Shown: one piece after another, positions 46,910 through 53,492 of the stretch | Layout: each line of letters opens with the position of its first letter | How positions within the stretch are numbered: position 1 is the first letter of the stretch | From: Halosegnis marinus | Lineage (GTDB): Archaea; Halobacteriota; Halobacteria; Halobacteriales; Haloarculaceae | DNA: 64,000 nucleotides | Reading direction: 5' to 3' | Assembly: GCF_029338355.1 (NCBI RefSeq) | Contig: NZ_CP119802.1 | Location: 1,550,001-1,614,000, forward strand | The notes under the pieces: generated by a model | What the model saw: the letters and a program-made list of their open reading frames with translations, nothing else | The model's database searches: none | What the model was told of the DNA's origin: nothing | Translations under genes and position numbers: made by a program

Positions 46910-47764
46910 ATGCAGGGCACCGGACTCCCGCTCGCCACGCCGTTCGACGCGGCCGGCGACGTGGACCACGGCGCGCTCGCGGCCCTCGTCGAGTGGGTCG
47001 AGGCGCGCGGCGTCGACTTCATCGTCCCGTGCGGTTCCAACAGCGAGGCCCCCCTCCTGACGCGCGAGGAGCGGGCCGCGGTCGTCGACACGGTCGCCGA
47101 CGCGACCGACCTCCCCGTCCTCGCGGGCACCGGGGCGGAGGGGGAACGGGAGACGCTGGCGCTCACCCGCGACGCCGCCGAGGCCGGCGCGGACGCCGCG
47201 CTCGTCGTCACGCCGTACTACTTCGAGCACGGCCCCGACGCGATGGCCGACTACTACCGCCGGGTCGCCGACGCGAGCCCCGTCCCCGTCTATCTCTACT
47301 CGGTGCCGGCGTTCACCGGCCGCGCGCTCGCGCCGGAGACCGTGGGCCGGGTCGCCGACCACCCGAACGTCGCCGGCATGAAGGACTCCTCGGGCGACAT
47401 GGCCGCGTTCAAGCGGATTCTCGCGCGGACCCCCGACGACTTCGACCTGCTCGTCGGGAGCGGGGGCGTCTACGCCGAGGCGCTCGCGCTCGGGGGGTCG
47501 GGCGGCGTCCTCGGCGTCGCCAACCTCGTGCCCGAACTCGCCTCGGCCGTGTACGCGGCCGACGACCCGGCCGTCGCGCGCGAGCGCAACGACGCGTTCG
47601 TCGAACTGAACCACCTCGTCACGAGCGACTACGGGATTCCGGGGCTGAAGGCCGCGATGCGGTCGCGCGGCGCGCCCGCGGGTGTCGTCCGCTCGCCGCA
47701 CACGCCCGTTCCGGAGGCGGTCGCCGAGGAACTCGCCGCCGCCGTCGAGCGCGCGCTCGATTAG
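46910..47764 (+). CDS. DapA/KDG-aldolase-family lyase
   Basis: A 284-residue TIM-barrel aldolase. Schiff-base Lys158 is in VAGMKDSSGD, and the proton-shuttle Tyr130 in VYLYSVPAFTG. FIVPCGSNSEAPLLTREER is the pyruvate-binding (GTTGE-like) loop, with a Ser/Asn in place of Thr/Thr-Gly. It could be 2-keto-3-deoxygluconate aldolase or dihydrodipicolinate synthase; the altered loop favours a KDG aldolase or N-acetylneuraminate-lyase-like role. The stop overlaps that of the ModE-like gene. Confidence 0.85.
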   Translation: MQGTGLPLATPFDAAGDVDHGALAALVEWVEARGVDFIVPCGSNSEAPLLTREERAAVVDTVADATDLPVLAGTGAEGERETLALTRDAAEAGADAALVVTPYYFEHGPDAMADYYRRVADASPVPVYLYSVPAFTGRALAPETVGRVADHPNVAGMKDSSGDMAAFKRILARTPDDFDLLVGSGGVYAEALALGGSGGVLGVANLVPELASAVYAADDPAVARERNDAFVELNHLVTSDYGIPGLKAAMRSRGAPAGVVRSPHTPVPEAVAEELAAAVERALD

Positions 47765-48441
47765 GTCTCGACGCCGCGGGTCGCCGTCGCCTTGAACGAG
47801 GCGACGACCGACGCCCCCGCCTCCAGCCCGAGCCGGTCGGCGCTGTCCGTCGTCACGAGCGCCGCGAGCGGGTCGTCCGCGCCCACGTCCACCGCGACCC
47901 GGACGACGGCGGCCCCCCGGTCGAGCGCCGTCACGGTGCCGGCGAGGCGGTTGCGCGCGCTCGTCGCGTCCGCGTCGGGGACCTCGGCGGGCGCGTGGAG
48001 CGTGACGGCGTCGGCCCGGAGGGTGAGCGCCACCCGGTCGGCGCCCGGCGGGACGAGCGCGCGCACGGTGCCAGCGGCCGTCTCCACGGCCGCGAGTTCG
48101 CCGTCGCGCTCGGTGACGCGGCCGTCGAGCACCGTCTCCTCGACGGCGGCGACGGCGTCGAAGCCGGCGCGCAGGCGGTCGAACCGCGCCAGCAGGTCGC
48201 GCGCGCCGTCCGTGAGTTCGGAGCCGCCGCCGCCCGCGCCGCCGCGCGTCCGCTCGACGAGCGGGCCGAACGCGGCCTCCAGCGCCGTGAGTCGCTCGTG
48301 GGCCCGGGCGTACGAGCGGCCGAGCTCCCCCGCCGCGGCGTTGAGCGACCCGGCCTCGTCCACGGCGCGCAGGAGGGCGGCGTCGCGGGCGTCGAAGCTC
48401 ACGTCCCCCTCGTGGAGTCGCGCGTCGAACTCGGCGTCCAT
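47761..48441 (-). CDS. ModE-type regulator with TOBE domains
   Basis: A 226-residue protein. The N-terminal winged helix (AVDEAGSLNAAAGELGRSYARAHERLTALEAAFG, then GGAGGGGSELTDGARDLLARFD) is the ModE DNA-binding domain. The C-terminus carries two TOBE-like oxyanion-binding parts (LVPPGADRVALTLRADAVTL and RNRLAGTVTALDRGAAVVRVAVD). It senses molybdate or tungstate and controls uptake. It is the last gene of the tup operon. Confidence 0.9.
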   Translation of the reverse strand: MDAEFDARLHEGDVSFDARDAALLRAVDEAGSLNAAAGELGRSYARAHERLTALEAAFGPLVERTRGGAGGGGSELTDGARDLLARFDRLRAGFDAVAAVEETVLDGRVTERDGELAAVETAAGTVRALVPPGADRVALTLRADAVTLHAPAEVPDADATSARNRLAGTVTALDRGAAVVRVAVDVGADDPLAALVTTDSADRLGLEAGASVVASFKATATRGVET

Positions 48442-48478: not shown

Positions 48479-49243
48479 TCAGTAGACGAGTTCGCCGTCG
48501 ATGAACGCCCGGGCGCGGTCGTCGTCCGGGGCGTCGAACACCTCGGCGGCCGGCCCCTGCTCGATGAGCGTCCCGTCGAGCATGACGCCGACGCGGTCGG
48601 CTATCCGCTCGGCCTGCTGCATGTCGTGGGTGGCGATGACCACGGCGATGTCGCGGTCGCGGGCGGCGTCCACCGCCTCCTCGATGAGCGCCGTGTTGCG
48701 CGGGTCGAGGTTCGAGGTGGGCTCGTCGAGCAGCAGCACCTCGGGCTCGGTCGCGAGCGCCCGGGCGAAGGCGACGCGCTGTGCCTCCCCGGCCGAGAGC
48801 GACGACGCCGGGTCGCGGACCTTCCCCCGGAGCCCCACCGTGTCGAGCGCCTCGGCGACCGACTCGGGCAGGGGCGGCTCGCCGGCCAGCCCCCGGAGCC
48901 AGCGTCCCGCACGGTCGGTCCACGACCGCCTGACGGCGAGTCCGTACGCGGCGTTGTGGGCGACGCTCGTCGAGAACAGCGACCGGCTCTGGAACACCAT
49001 GCCGACGCGCCGGCGCACCCGCGTCCGCTCCGCCCGCGACAGCGTCCACACGTCCCGGTCGTCGGCGGTGACGGTTCCCCCCTCCGGCGGGTCGAACAGC
49101 GCGAGCAGGCGGAGGAGGGTCGTCTTCCCCGTTCCCGAGGGACCGATGAGCGCGAACGTCTCGCCCGGTTCGGCGGCGAGCGACACGTCCGCGAGGACCC
49201 GCTCGTCGCCGTACCCGAACCCGACCCCGTGGGCGGCTATCAC
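48479..49243 (-). CDS. tupC: Tungstate ABC transporter, ATP-binding protein
   Basis: A 254-residue ABC ATPase. Walker A GPSGTGKTT (34-42), signature SLSAGEAQRVAFARAL, Walker B VLLLDEPTSNLDP, H-loop VVIATHDMQQAE. The Walker A and LSAGE/Q motifs fit oxyanion importers. It overlaps tupB by 4 bp. Confidence 0.93.
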   Translation of the reverse strand: MIAAHGVGFGYGDERVLADVSLAAEPGETFALIGPSGTGKTTLLRLLALFDPPEGGTVTADDRDVWTLSRAERTRVRRRVGMVFQSRSLFSTSVAHNAAYGLAVRRSWTDRAGRWLRGLAGEPPLPESVAEALDTVGLRGKVRDPASSLSAGEAQRVAFARALATEPEVLLLDEPTSNLDPRNTALIEEAVDAARDRDIAVVIATHDMQQAERIADRVGVMLDGTLIEQGPAAEVFDAPDDDRARAFIDGELVY

Positions 49244-49989
49244 GCTCGCCCCCGCTCGCGGACGACGTTCCCAAGCGCGTTCACCGACAGCGCGATGGCG
49301 AGCAGCACGACGCCGAGCGCGATGCCGGTCCCGTAGTTCCCCTGTCTCGATTCGAGCGTGATAGCGGTCGTGAGCGTTCGGGTGAACGCGACCCGCGCGC
49401 CCCCCTCCGTGGCGATGGCGATGTTCCCCCCGACGATGAGGACGGAGCCGACCTCCGAGACGGCCCGCCCGAACCCGGCGAGGACGGCCGTCACGACGCC
49501 GTACCGCGCTTCCCTGACGACCGCGACCTGCACGTCGCGGGCGGTTCCCCCGGCGGCGAAGGCCGCGTCGCGTATCGAGTCGTCGACCCCCTCGATGGCC
49601 GAGAGGGTGACGCTCGTGATGACGGGCGTCGCGAGAATCACCTGCGAGACGACCATCGCCGTCGGCGTGTAGAGGAGCTCGACGCCGCCGAAGGTGTAGA
49701 GGACGCCCACGCCGGGCAGGCCGAGCGAGAAGCCGCCCCCGACCGGCCCGGCGTTCGACAGCAGCAGGAGGACGAGGAGGCCGACGACGACGCTCGGAAA
49801 GCCCATCCCCGTGTTGACGACGGAGACGACGGCCTGCCGCCCGCGGAAGTCGCGGAACCCGAGCAGGCCGGCGAGCAGGAGGCTGACGACCGTACTGACC
49901 GCGACCGCCGCGAGGCTCACCTGCAGGGTGACGCGGACGATGCTTATCAGGTACCGCGTACCGAACTCGGCGAGGACGCCGTCGAACAC
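49240..49989 (-). CDS. tupB: Tungstate ABC transporter, permease
   Basis: A 249-residue membrane protein of about five to six helices. The EAA-like loop is SIRDAAFAAGGTARDVQVAVVREARYG, and the last helix is GIALGVVLLAIALSVNAL. The N-terminus ISIVRVTLQVSLAAVAVSTV fits TupB. It pairs with TupC and delivers tungstate (or molybdate) into the cell. Confidence 0.92.
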   Translation of the reverse strand: MFDGVLAEFGTRYLISIVRVTLQVSLAAVAVSTVVSLLLAGLLGFRDFRGRQAVVSVVNTGMGFPSVVVGLLVLLLLSNAGPVGGGFSLGLPGVGVLYTFGGVELLYTPTAMVVSQVILATPVITSVTLSAIEGVDDSIRDAAFAAGGTARDVQVAVVREARYGVVTAVLAGFGRAVSEVGSVLIVGGNIAIATEGGARVAFTRTLTTAITLESRQGNYGTGIALGVVLLAIALSVNALGNVVRERGRA

Positions 49990-50012: not shown

Positions 50013-51047
50013 TCAGAAGTCCTCCGGGACCATCGTGTCCACCCAATGCTGGAAGCGCACCGACTGCATCGACGTGTTCTCCCAGTCCATCGGCACGTAC
50101 TGCTGGAAGTCCGGCTCCGGCGCGAGCGCGTTCGGGAAGAACAGCTGTGACCCGTTCGCCGTGTAGTCGGCGATGGCCTGCTGGCCCCGCGGGCTGGTCA
50201 GGAAGGAGACGTACGCCATCGCGGCCTGGTAGTTCACGTTGTCGTGGACGGCCGGGTTGACCGGGATGACGCCGTAGGGGTTCTGGAGTATCTCCGGACC
50301 GTCGCGCAGCGGCCCCTGCACGTGGATGACGAGGCTGATGTTGTCTTGCTGGGAGAGGTAGGTCCCGCGGTCGGCGAGGGTGTAGCCGCCCGTCTGGTTC
50401 GCCTGGTTCAGCGTGTCGCCCATCCCCTGTCCCGTCTCGCGGTACCACGACCCCGAGGGGTCGACCCCCGCGGCCTCCCAGATGTTGAGTTCCTTCGTGT
50501 TCGTCCCGGAGTCGTCGCCCCGCGAGAGGAACGTGGCCTCCTGCTCGGCGATGGTGGCGAACGCCTCCGTCGCGCTCGACATCCCGTTGATGCCCGCGGG
50601 GTCGTCCTCCGGGCCGACGATGACGAAGTCGTTGAACATCACGTCCCGGCGGTTCACCCCCGCGCCGTCGCGGAGGAACTGGTCCTCCGGGCCGCGCGCG
50701 TGGACGAGGATGACGTCCGCGTCGCCGTTACGCCCCGTCTGGATGGCCGCGCCCGTCCCCTGCGAGATGGTCCGGACCGTGACGCCGAACGTCTCCTGGA
50801 AGGTCGGATTGATGGCGTCCAGCAGGCCGGTGTCGTACGTGCTGGTCGTCGTCGCCAGCACCAGCTCGCCGTCGCCGATGTCGGACCCCATCGACGCGGA
50901 CTCGTCACCGCCCCCGCCGCCGTCGGTCGGCGTCGCCGTCCCGTTCCCGCTCGTACAGCCGGCGAGGCCGAGCGCCGTGCCCACTCCGGCCGCCTGCATC
51001 AGTCGCCGTCGTGTGGTCTTCCCCGACCGCTCCCGTTCTTCCGACAT
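50013..51047 (-). CDS. tupA: Tungstate ABC transporter, substrate-binding lipoprotein
   Basis: A 344-residue protein. Twin arginine near [11 protein letters not shown] (residues 11-21), lipobox LAGC (Cys31), then a Gly/Ser/Asp linker. [20 protein letters not shown] is the TupA signature (TTTSTxxSGLL) whose side chains hold the oxyanion. [19 protein letters not shown] and [13 protein letters not shown] are further TupA motifs. The ligand is likely tungstate, with molybdate possible. The first gene of the tup operon. Confidence 0.94.
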
Positions 51048-51051
51048 GGAT

Positions 51052-51073
51052 ACAACGGCGTTGTCTCGGACAA
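51052..51073. promoter_or_regulatory. Two overlapping inverted repeats at the tupA promoter (candidate operator)
   Basis: ACAACG-G-CGTTGT (51052-51064) and TTGTC-TCG-GACAA (51061-51073) sit between the tupA start and its TATA box. A dimeric regulator bound here would block transcription start. The operon's own ModE-like protein is the obvious candidate. Confidence 0.5.
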
Positions 51074-51082
51074 TGTATAACG
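51073..51082 (-). promoter_or_regulatory. TATA box of tupA
   Basis: On the minus strand CCGTTATACAT, about 30 nt from the tupA start at 51047. Confidence 0.55.
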
Positions 51083-51223
51083 GTTTCGACGGGTCGGACC
51101 GTGACCGTTCCGTGGCCTGAAACCTCCGACCGGGCGAAACCGCTGGAGATTACTCCCAACGTGCCCGACGGTCGTTTCCGGTTTCTGACAACTCTGAAGG
51201 CCGGCCGCCTCCAGTCCCGGACG

Positions 51224-52303
51224 ATGAGCTTCGACGTCGGGCGCCGCCGCGGCCTCTCCCTCGACACCGGCGAGGTCACCGGCGCGCTCGGCGACTCGCT
51301 GACGGTGTTGCCCGTCGTCGTCGCGCTGGCGGCGCTCACCGACGCGTCGCTCGCCCACCTGTTCGTGGGGTTCGCCGTCTTCCAGGCGGTGTGGGGACTC
51401 TACTACGGCCTACCGCTCTCCGTCGAGCCGATGAAGGCGCTCGCCGGACTGGCTATCGCCGGCGCGCTCACCTACGGCGAACTGATGGCCGCGGGGCTGG
51501 CGGCGGGCGCGATACTGCTCGCCGCCGCACGCTTCGACGCCGTGGGCCGGGTCGCCGCGTTCGTCTCGACACCCGTCATCAAGGGGGTACAGCTCTCCGT
51601 CGCCGCCCTGCTCGCGCTCGCGGGGCTCGAACTCGCGGCGGGTGCGCCCCGCGTCGCCGCGCTCGGCGTCGCGGCCGCCGTCGCGGGCACCCTGCTCCAC
51701 CGGAAGGCGGGGGCGCTCGCCGTCCTCGGGGCCGGCACCGCCGTCGCCGCGCTCGGGGGGCTCCCGTCGCCGACGCTCCCGTCGGTCGTCCCCTTCCCGG
51801 CCGGGCTCCCGACGTTCACCCTCGCCGCGGCGGAGGGGCTGGTCGGTCAGCTCGCCATGACCGTCGGCAACGCCGCCGTCGCCACCTCGCTGCTCTGCTC
51901 GGAGCTGTTCGACGCCGAGGTGTCGCCCGACGAACTCGCCGGGAGCATGGGCGCGATGAACCTCCTCGCCGTCCCGCTCGGGGCCGCGCCGATGTGTCAC
52001 GGCTCGGGCGGCCTCGCCGGGAAACACGCGTTCGGGGCGCGCACGGGCGGCGCGAACCTCGTCCTCGCGGCGCTCTACCTCGGGGCGGCCGTCGTCGCGC
52101 CGCTGTGGGCCGGCTTCCCGCTGGCGGCGCTCGGCGTCCTCCTGCTCGCCGTCGCCGCCCACCTCGCCCGGGTCGCGCTCGACACCGACGGCCGGGGGCT
52201 CGCGGTCGGGATGGCCGTCCTCGCCGTCGCGTCGAACGTCGGCGTCGCCTTCCTCGCCGGCGTCGCGGCCGACCGCCTGCTCGCCCGCGTCCGGGGTCGG
52301 TAG
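51224..52303 (+). CDS. MOT1-type molybdate transporter
   Basis: A 359-residue membrane protein of about 10-11 helices. LPLSVEPMKALAGLAIAGAL is the MOT1 motif (PVQPMKAIAA), and PMCHGSGGLAGKHAFGARTGG is the second MOT1 motif, which is very specific. The family sits close to the sulfate permeases (SulP) and carries molybdate with high affinity. It is divergent from tupA with 176 bp between, so both anion importers may share regulation. Confidence 0.92.
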   Translation: MSFDVGRRRGLSLDTGEVTGALGDSLTVLPVVVALAALTDASLAHLFVGFAVFQAVWGLYYGLPLSVEPMKALAGLAIAGALTYGELMAAGLAAGAILLAAARFDAVGRVAAFVSTPVIKGVQLSVAALLALAGLELAAGAPRVAALGVAAAVAGTLLHRKAGALAVLGAGTAVAALGGLPSPTLPSVVPFPAGLPTFTLAAAEGLVGQLAMTVGNAAVATSLLCSELFDAEVSPDELAGSMGAMNLLAVPLGAAPMCHGSGGLAGKHAFGARTGGANLVLAALYLGAAVVAPLWAGFPLAALGVLLLAVAAHLARVALDTDGRGLAVGMAVLAVASNVGVAFLAGVAADRLLARVRGR

Positions 52304-52339: not shown

Positions 52340-52783
52340 ATGGACCTGACGTACCTGCTCGACGAGGGAGTGACCGCCGAGCGCCGCGCCACGGTGACCG
52401 AGTCGCAGGCGACGACGGTGTTCGGCGACCACCCCGACCCGCCGGCCCGCCCCGCGGCCGGCGACGCCCGGCCCGAGGAGGCGACGGACGTCCTCGGCTC
52501 GCCCGGCGTGCTCGCGTGGGTGGAGTTCGTCGGGCGCGACGCGCTCCACGGCCGCCTTCCCGACGGCACGGGAACCGTCGGCGTCCGCGCCGAACTCGAC
52601 CACCTCGGGGCCGCGCCCGTCGGCGCGGAGATACTCGTCCGCACCGACCTGACCGCGGTCGAGGACGCGACGCTCACCGTCGAGGGGCGCATCGAGCGCG
52701 CCGACGGCCGCCCCGTCGGCGAGGTGACCACCCTCTTCCGCGTCGTGGACCGTGACCGGTTCCGCGCCTCCCTCGATGAGTGA
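52340..52783 (+). CDS. FlK-like hotdog thioesterase
   Basis: A 147-residue protein. RATVTESQATTVFG, LGSPGVLAWVEFVGRDALHG, GTVGVRAELDHLGAAPVGAEI and LTVEGRIERADGRPVGEVTTLF follow the fluoroacetyl-CoA thioesterase-like hotdog order, with the Glu and His in AWVEF and ELDHLG as the likely catalytic pair. A 30-residue Pro/Ala/Asp-rich insertion sits after VFGDHPD. Its stop overlaps the next gene's start by 8 bp (ATGAGTGA). Substrate unknown. Confidence 0.78.
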   Translation: MDLTYLLDEGVTAERRATVTESQATTVFGDHPDPPARPAAGDARPEEATDVLGSPGVLAWVEFVGRDALHGRLPDGTGTVGVRAELDHLGAAPVGAEILVRTDLTAVEDATLTVEGRIERADGRPVGEVTTLFRVVDRDRFRASLDE

Positions 52784-53492
52784 GCCGCGCGCCGTCGCGG
52801 TCAACGTCGGCGCGAACACGAACGAGCCGGGCTTTCGCGCCCCCGTGTTCGCGGACGGCACGTTCGCGTTCGTCCCCATCCCCGAGTCCGAACCCACCCG
52901 CGGGGACGTGCCCACGTACGGCGACCTCGCGCCGCATCTCCCGGTGGAGGTCCCCGACGACCTGACGGGGACGCCGGTCCACCTCGACCCGGAGTTCGCG
53001 GGCTACCCGTACTGCGAACGCCACACCTACGGCGACCCCCACGGCGTGAAGGCGCGCCCGCTCGCCGACCTCGCGCGCGGCGACTACGCGCTCTTCTACG
53101 CGACGCTCGACGTGGCGGAGGGGGCCGACTGGCAGCCCCCGAACTGGGGCGCGTTCCTCGTCGGGGCGATGCGGCTGGCGCGCGACCCCGTCACCGACTA
53201 CGACGCCCTCCCGGCCGACGAACGGGCCGTCTTCGCCAACAACGCCCACGTCAAGCGCGCCGAGATGGACGCCGCCGTCCTCCTCCACGGCGACGACTCC
53301 TCGGGCCTGTTCGACCGCGCCGTCCCCCTCTCCGCACCCTCGGCCGGCGTCGACGCGAACCGGCTCGTCACCGGCCTCTCCGCCGACTCCGGGAAGGGTC
53401 CGTGGTGGCGGCGGCCGCTCCGCTACGACGCCGACGCGACGGCGACCCTGCTCGACGTCCTCGACACCCGCGCGTTCGACCCGTGGCTGTGA
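52776..53492 (+). CDS. Nmad3-like domain protein
   Basis: A 238-residue protein. VAVNVGANTNEPGFRAPVFADGTFAFVPIPESEPT, VHLDPEFAGYPY and LARGDYALFYATLDV match the order I recall for Nmad3 (nucleotide modification associated domain 3): an N-terminal anchor, a FxPIPE/S loop, an (H)xDP motif and a GDxxFFYA strand. Nmad proteins occur with DNA-base-modification genes in phages and bacteria. Here there is no such partner, only the thioesterase gene, with which it shares an 8-bp overlap. The assignment is by memory of motifs and needs a profile search. Function unknown. Confidence 0.5.
   Translation: MSEPRAVAVNVGANTNEPGFRAPVFADGTFAFVPIPESEPTRGDVPTYGDLAPHLPVEVPDDLTGTPVHLDPEFAGYPYCERHTYGDPHGVKARPLADLARGDYALFYATLDVAEGADWQPPNWGAFLVGAMRLARDPVTDYDALPADERAVFANNAHVKRAEMDAAVLLHGDDSSGLFDRAVPLSAPSAGVDANRLVTGLSADSGKGPWWRRPLRYDADATATLLDVLDTRAFDPWL

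Follow-up and report, generated by a model that had tools for sequence, protein, structure and literature searches.

Known ModE operators

ModE and its operator are already known. The E. coli ModE consensus, as quoted in the accessible portion of PMC545781, is ATCGNTATATA-[N6]-TATATANCGAT, and the same portion gives CGGTCACG-[N14]-CGTGACCG for the Desulfovibrio sites associated with ModE domains. In the Methanosarcinales, ModE controls modABC according to the excerpted text of PMC9765008, and the title of the paper by Studholme and Pau (2003) claims conservation of the ModE element in Archaea. No study of a haloarchaeal ModE operator was recognisable in the literature searched, where the word "mode" swamps several of the result lists and makes this weak evidence of absence. 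Descriptions of a haloarchaeal box at the start codon, of doubling at 25 bp, and of loss together with ModE in Haloferax were likewise not found, a negative that is equally weak.

The window studied here, a 64,000-nucleotide stretch of the Halosegnis marinus genome, contains two 24-bp boxes in front of a tupA-like gene. The boxes resemble the E. coli-type operator in their 24-bp core, which is laid out as 9-6-9 and has CG at either end, and in covering the promoter of an ABC importer for oxyanions, here at a TATA-like sequence and the tupA start codon. They differ from it at the ninth base of the arm, mostly C in place of A, and at position 5, which is often G; moreover, the box spans the start codon and is sometimes doubled at a 25-bp spacing. 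Like the Desulfovibrio sites, as far as these are described in the portion cited, the boxes are inverted repeats before an oxyanion transport operon (for molybdate in Desulfovibrio), whereas half-site and spacing are unrelated. With a probability of roughly 0.86, the interval from 51034 to 51082 is predicted from its sequence context to be a tandem operator at which a ModE-like repressor, the product of the operon's own last gene, acts.

Genes of the locus

An intergenic gap of 176 bp (51048-51223) separates the tupA-like gene from a divergent gene matching PF16983 (MFS_MOT1). The genes on either side are as follows.

50013-51047, minus strand: tupA-like substrate-binding protein gene (NF041772, 216.8 bits, cut-off 400; PF12849, 158.8 bits)
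49240-49989, minus strand: tupB-like permease gene (NF038017, 183.5 bits, above cut-off; NF041773 TupB, 116.5 bits, cut-off 320)
48479-49243, minus strand: tupC-like ATPase gene (PF00005, 111.7 bits)
47761-48441, minus strand: ModE-like regulator gene with an N-terminal LysR-type HTH and one TOBE/Mop domain (domain profile matches)
51224-52303, plus strand: divergent MOT1-family transporter gene (PF16983, 121.8 bits, cut-off 30, two stretches; not evidently under the boxes)

An earlier note on this DNA had named a ModE/TOBE regulator as the last gene of the operon and a MOT1 gene across the gap, and both assignments hold: the gene encoding HTH and TOBE domains is the last of the tupA-strand genes, giving the operon tupABC-modE, and the PF16983 match starts with the ATG at 51224. 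The ATG of tupA is the complement of 51047-51045. The gene is called tupA-like because its product does not reach the NCBIfam equivalog cut-off for TupA. Gene order and family matches are like those of the TupABC tungstate importer, whereas the window TupA scores 216.8 bits against a cut-off of 400; since the equivalog cut-offs for both TupA and TupB are missed, the importer may take molybdate and/or tungstate.

The C-terminal TOBE/Mop region of the regulator scores above cut-off with PF03459 (58.6 bits) and TIGR00638 (61.1 bits). Its HTH scores above cut-off with PF00126 (30.7 bits) and matches NCBI's ModE model TIGR00637 with an E value of 1.1e-15, at 57.4 bits below its cut-off of 98.5. The closest solved relatives of the protein are the E. 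coli ModE structures, with PDB entry 1o7l matching over the HTH (E value of 3.3e-13), and the protein is the sole TOBE match in the whole genome. It is named ModE-like because it has one TOBE stretch, compared with the two tandem TOBE domains of E. coli ModE. On the other side of the gap, two genes downstream of MOT1 and after a FlK-like thioesterase, the plus strand encodes an Nmad3 protein (PF18754, nucleotide-modification associated; 52776-53492).

Two 24-bp boxes at the tupA promoter and start codon

Read on the minus strand toward tupA, the sequence CGTTATACATTGTCCGAGACAACG-C-CGTTGTATCCATGTCGGAAGAACG consists of two 24-bp units one base apart, with the following elements.

51059-51082, minus strand: ModE-type box 1, CGTTATACA-TTGTCC-GAGACAACG, with the TATA-like TTATAC inside its left arm
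51034-51057, minus strand: ModE-type box 2, CGTTGTATC-CATGTC-GGAAGAACG, set 25 bp from box 1 and extending across the tupA start codon
51075-51080, minus strand: TATA-like hexamer TTATAC, called from sequence, which precedes the tupA ATG by 28-33 nt
51052-51064, no strand: ACAACG-G-CGTTGT, the junction of the boxes, made of the outer arm of box 2, a 1-bp spacer at 51058 and the outer arm of box 1

The box pattern is CGTTRTnTC-N6-GAnAYAACG. Box 1 matches at 12/12 arm positions, is the only such site in the genome, and has counterparts in the relatives G034 and G016. Box 2 matches at 11/12 arm positions and has the top PWM score of the window (27.6), compared with 2.5 for the best site outside both boxes. 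When the 24-bp core of the E. coli consensus is run over the 64 kb, box 1 ranks first with 12/16 (arm CGNTATATA), and box 2 scores 10/16, level with seven other sites in the window. In the genome as a whole, the box model returns only these two sites at an E value of at most 10, with values that are weak in themselves (0.034 and 1.74), and a wider ModE regulon in this genome was rejected on that result. Allowing no more than one arm mismatch gives 14 sites in the genome, 12 of which are outside the two boxes; these are mostly inside overlapping open reading frames, no Mo/W gene is recognisable by eye among them, and one (L149) looks promoter-like. A scan of 22 relatives gave 20 box matches at an E value of at most 0.1, including one inside what appears by eye to be a gyrB/parE-like reading frame.

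Across 55 tupA loci, the A+T content peaks (0.75-0.87) at 16-20 nt upstream of the primary box, which would be the expected TATA position for a transcript starting near the ATG. In Haloferax volcanii, 72% of protein-coding transcripts are leaderless, according to the accessible part of PMC4983044.

The earlier note had drawn attention to two overlapping inverted repeats, ACAACG-G-CGTTGT and TTGTC-TCG-GACAA (51061-51073). Both are present and have 51061-51064 in common, and ACAACGNCGTTGT is found once only in the genome. As units in their own right, these palindromes were rejected because their counts match shuffle expectation: with arms of 5 and loops of up to 6, the 176-bp gap contains 3 inverted repeats versus 2.07 in dinucleotide shuffles (P = 0.35), and with arms of 6 it contains 1 versus 0.60 (P = 0.38). 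What exceeds chance is the larger two-box element, in which the first palindrome is the junction between the boxes and the second lies within box 1. Conservation in relatives, which the note had set as its own test, is divided accordingly: the 24-bp box is kept, whereas TTGTC-TCG-GACAA is absent from relatives that keep box 1 (L007 in G034 and L009 in G016). The suggestion that a ModE-like regulator acts on repeats at the tupA promoter is probably right, with the units redrawn as the two boxes. The overlap of the palindromes had also been placed where RNA polymerase would start; it is about 14-16 bp downstream of TTATAC, somewhat upstream of the expected transcription start.

Conservation of the box in haloarchaea

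Of 116 genomes, 59 contain TupA, that of H. marinus among them, and 67 tupA loci were examined, with G037 (a match starting mid-gene) and G101 (a near-duplicate of G019) left out. A locus was scored as boxed when CGTTRT-N12-AYAACG was matched near the gene start at 10 or more of the 12 arm positions. The box is present in 55 of the 57 main-group tupA loci (window included), 47 of which reach at least 11/12; shuffled sequences reach at least 10/12 in 2.0% of cases and at least 11/12 in 0.1%. The pattern was fixed after the first 30 loci had been viewed, and the PWM was built on tupA loci; all 28 of the main-group loci unseen when the pattern was set score at least 10. The box is also the best or equal-best match to the E. 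coli consensus in 55 of 57 tupA regions, with scores of 9-13 at the box, compared with maxima of 7-10 in stretches of equal length within the same genes. Among further named haloarchaeal tupA loci, 25 of 35 have a site with a PWM score of at least 12 near the start, compared with 0 of 36 non-haloarchaeal tupA loci; nine more loci repeat genomes already counted and were set aside. None of the 10 paralogous second tupA copies has the box. Second TupA-like copies (L093-L096 and L131-L135) are 48-55% identical to the window protein and are without any ModE-type box.

The same kind of box occurs at the start of wtpA-like genes beside modE. In modE neighbourhoods without tupA (L097-L130, 34 loci; L136 has a box and stands outside that count), the adjacent gene is WtpA-like in the four proteins tested, all of which score under the cut-offs of the WtpA models. 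A site with a PWM score of at least 14 was found in 28 of the 34 neighbourhoods and is missing in L102, L110, L116, L124, L126, and L130. Three of these (L102, L110, and L130) belong to genomes whose boxed tupA lies elsewhere, and in G007, the genome of L116, a box is at the start of another binding-protein-like gene (L192). A second site with a PWM score of at least 5 accompanies the box at -25 in 13, at -27 in 3, at -29 in 1, and at +25 in 1 of the 27 such loci with a usable box; L106, whose site (15.5) is away from the gene start, was left out of this spacing count. The window is one of the few tupA loci with the doubled form, as a partner at -25 is present in only 3 of 55 (the window, G016, and G079), and G034 keeps box 1 without a scoring box 2.

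The divergent MOT1 gene

The gap of only 176 bp is common to tupA and MOT1, and the earlier note had proposed a single switch for the two importers, in which the same repeats would also control MOT1. The transporter does recur beside these operons: in G034, G016, G020, G048, and G059 it comes directly after tupC on the same strand, with roughly 90-105 bp between the two genes; in G013 and G032 it is found near wtpA-like genes, beyond them; and in G022 it comes after modE. The boxes, however, have their centres at the promoter and the start codon of tupA, at a distance of 142-190 bp from where MOT1 starts, and a box with a PWM score of at least 12 between -250 and +40 is carried by 0 of 55 MOT1 homologues in relatives, a scan that left out two partial matches (G075 and G095:C8). 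The two other divergent tupA-MOT1 pairs at a similar gap (G110 and G088) occur in genomes without the box and without a ModE gene. Where MOT1 follows tupC, the 90-105 bp between them contain in several cases a recurring GTTTCTGA-type string, which suggests that MOT1 has its own promoter. A box common to tupA and MOT1 is thus unsupported by the homologues, and shared control of both importers is considered unlikely.

The recurrence of MOT1 beside these operons makes it likely that the importers are functionally tied, and in those neighbour genomes read-through could possibly join the expression of MOT1 to that of the operon. A GTTTCTGA-type string precedes MOT1 in the window (at about 51181-51192) and in L152, L155, L156, L157, and L193, and is perhaps a separate promoter or a regulator site. 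MFS_MOT1 (PF16983) homologues were found in 57 of the 116 genomes; Table 3 of PMC6147048, in the part of that paper available, lists no MOT1 for archaea.

Co-occurrence of the box with ModE

In the first set of genomes, a ModE gene is present in 54 of the 55 with a boxed tupA and in neither of the two without a box (G088 and G110); the boxed genome lacking it, G080, is 78% complete. A fresh test, in which ModE was searched for in 28 genomes, found it in 17 of 18 boxed genomes, with Halorientalis salina (G138, L261) as the exception, and in 0 of 10 boxless genomes, all of them Haloferax (L237, L239, L241, L242, L247, L251, L253, L255, L256, and L259). Seven boxed loci (L229, L257, L260, L265, L266, L270, and L275) were left out of this search. 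Pooled, ModE is present in 71 of 73 genomes with the box and in 0 of 12 without it. Because the boxless cases are confined to a few clades (Haloferax and the genus of G088 and G110), they represent a handful of independent losses and not 12. The modE gene is at most 6 kb from tupA in 48 of the 56 ModE-bearing tupA genomes, downstream on the same strand in 35, as in the window, and divergent in 13.

A different transcription factor could use the boxes, with ModE merely a neighbour, and the two boxed genomes in which no ModE gene was detected, G080 and G138, would fit such an arrangement. For the boxes in these genomes (L080 and L261), an assembly gap, a recent loss, or another regulator are suggested alternatives. 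Against a different factor, the presence or absence of the box agrees with that of ModE in 83 of 85 genomes and the box sequence conforms to the ModE consensus of E. coli, which makes this explanation improbable.

Constraint on DNA, protein, or RNA

Conservation around the start codon could alternatively result from coding constraint on a twin-arginine signal (M-x-I-Q-R-R) combined with ordinary promoter composition. The right arm encodes the Gln-Arg of the signal peptide in 43 of 53 tupA loci and 18 of 25 wtpA-like loci, and as this arm is often coding, part of its conservation could be protein constraint. Codon usage, however, is skewed within the box: Gln is encoded there by CAA in 43 of 44 tupA loci, compared with 80 of 753 Gln codons elsewhere in the same genes, and in 18 of 19 wtpA-like loci, compared with 47 of 232 elsewhere. 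This biased use of CAA indicates that selection appears to act on the DNA (the codon count leaves out L081, L086, L101, L104, and L106, for which a wrong reading frame or start had been assigned). In addition, the left arm precedes the start codon in most loci, the entire box precedes the ATG in three of the tupA loci (L037, L038, and L079), the position of the ATG within the box varies while the arms stay, and Haloferax tupA loci are without the box. Coding constraint as the full explanation is therefore very improbable. An N-terminal x-Q-R, for which the operator arm CAACG codes, is common to the TupA-like and the WtpA-like proteins (L097-L129 and L037-L092).

A hairpin in the RNA, formed at the 5' end of the transcript and acting like a riboswitch or in translational control, would match the 9-bp inverted repeat with its 6-nt loop around the start codon and was rejected as scarcely credible because the arms do not covary (a score of 0.091 versus 0.095 in shuffles for 40 boxes chosen by the analyst, with columns 5/20 unpaired in 22/40 and columns 7/18 in 20/40 sequences), and because box 1 covers the TATA-like sequence and so would not be transcribed, just as the left arm, given the TATA position, would fall largely upstream of a leaderless transcript. 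The lack of covariation fits independent half-sites for a protein better than it fits an RNA stem.

Predicted operation of the tandem operator and its implications

The boxes, their position and conservation, their co-occurrence with ModE, and their E. coli-type 9-6-9 layout are the observations from which the following operation of the tandem operator is proposed. Each 24-bp box would bind one dimer of the ModE-like protein, and the two boxes may cooperate. Box 1 would place the protein over the TATA-like sequence and box 2 over the expected transcript start and the start codon, the transcript probably being leaderless. With ample molybdate and/or tungstate in the cell, the TOBE domain would be occupied by oxyanion, which would favour DNA binding, and the bound ModE-like protein would exclude TBP/TFB and RNA polymerase and silence tupABC-modE; scarcity of the metal would release the operon. 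Repression by occlusion, rather than activation, is suggested because box 1 covers TTATAC and the A+T peaks lie 16-20 nt upstream of the primary boxes.

A broader reading, held with slightly less than even confidence, is that a doubled ModE operator with fixed 25-bp phasing, with one dimer over the TATA box and another over the start codon, forms a steep oxyanion switch in haloarchaea; that selection on the operator imposed the Gln-Arg (CAA-CGN) N-terminus on the TupA-like and WtpA-like families, because the second box is translated; and that losing the repressor led to erasure of the box, as seen in Haloferax. If this is true, regulatory DNA writes protein sequence in two families of binding proteins. 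An operator that overlaps the start codon would bias the encoded N-terminus, and conservation close to the ATG in leaderless genes would then not be due to protein constraint alone. Molybdenum and tungsten uptake in haloarchaea would gain a concrete control element, with the prediction that the tup operons of Haloarcula, Halorussus, and Haladaptatus respond to ModE and metal and that those of Haloferax do not.
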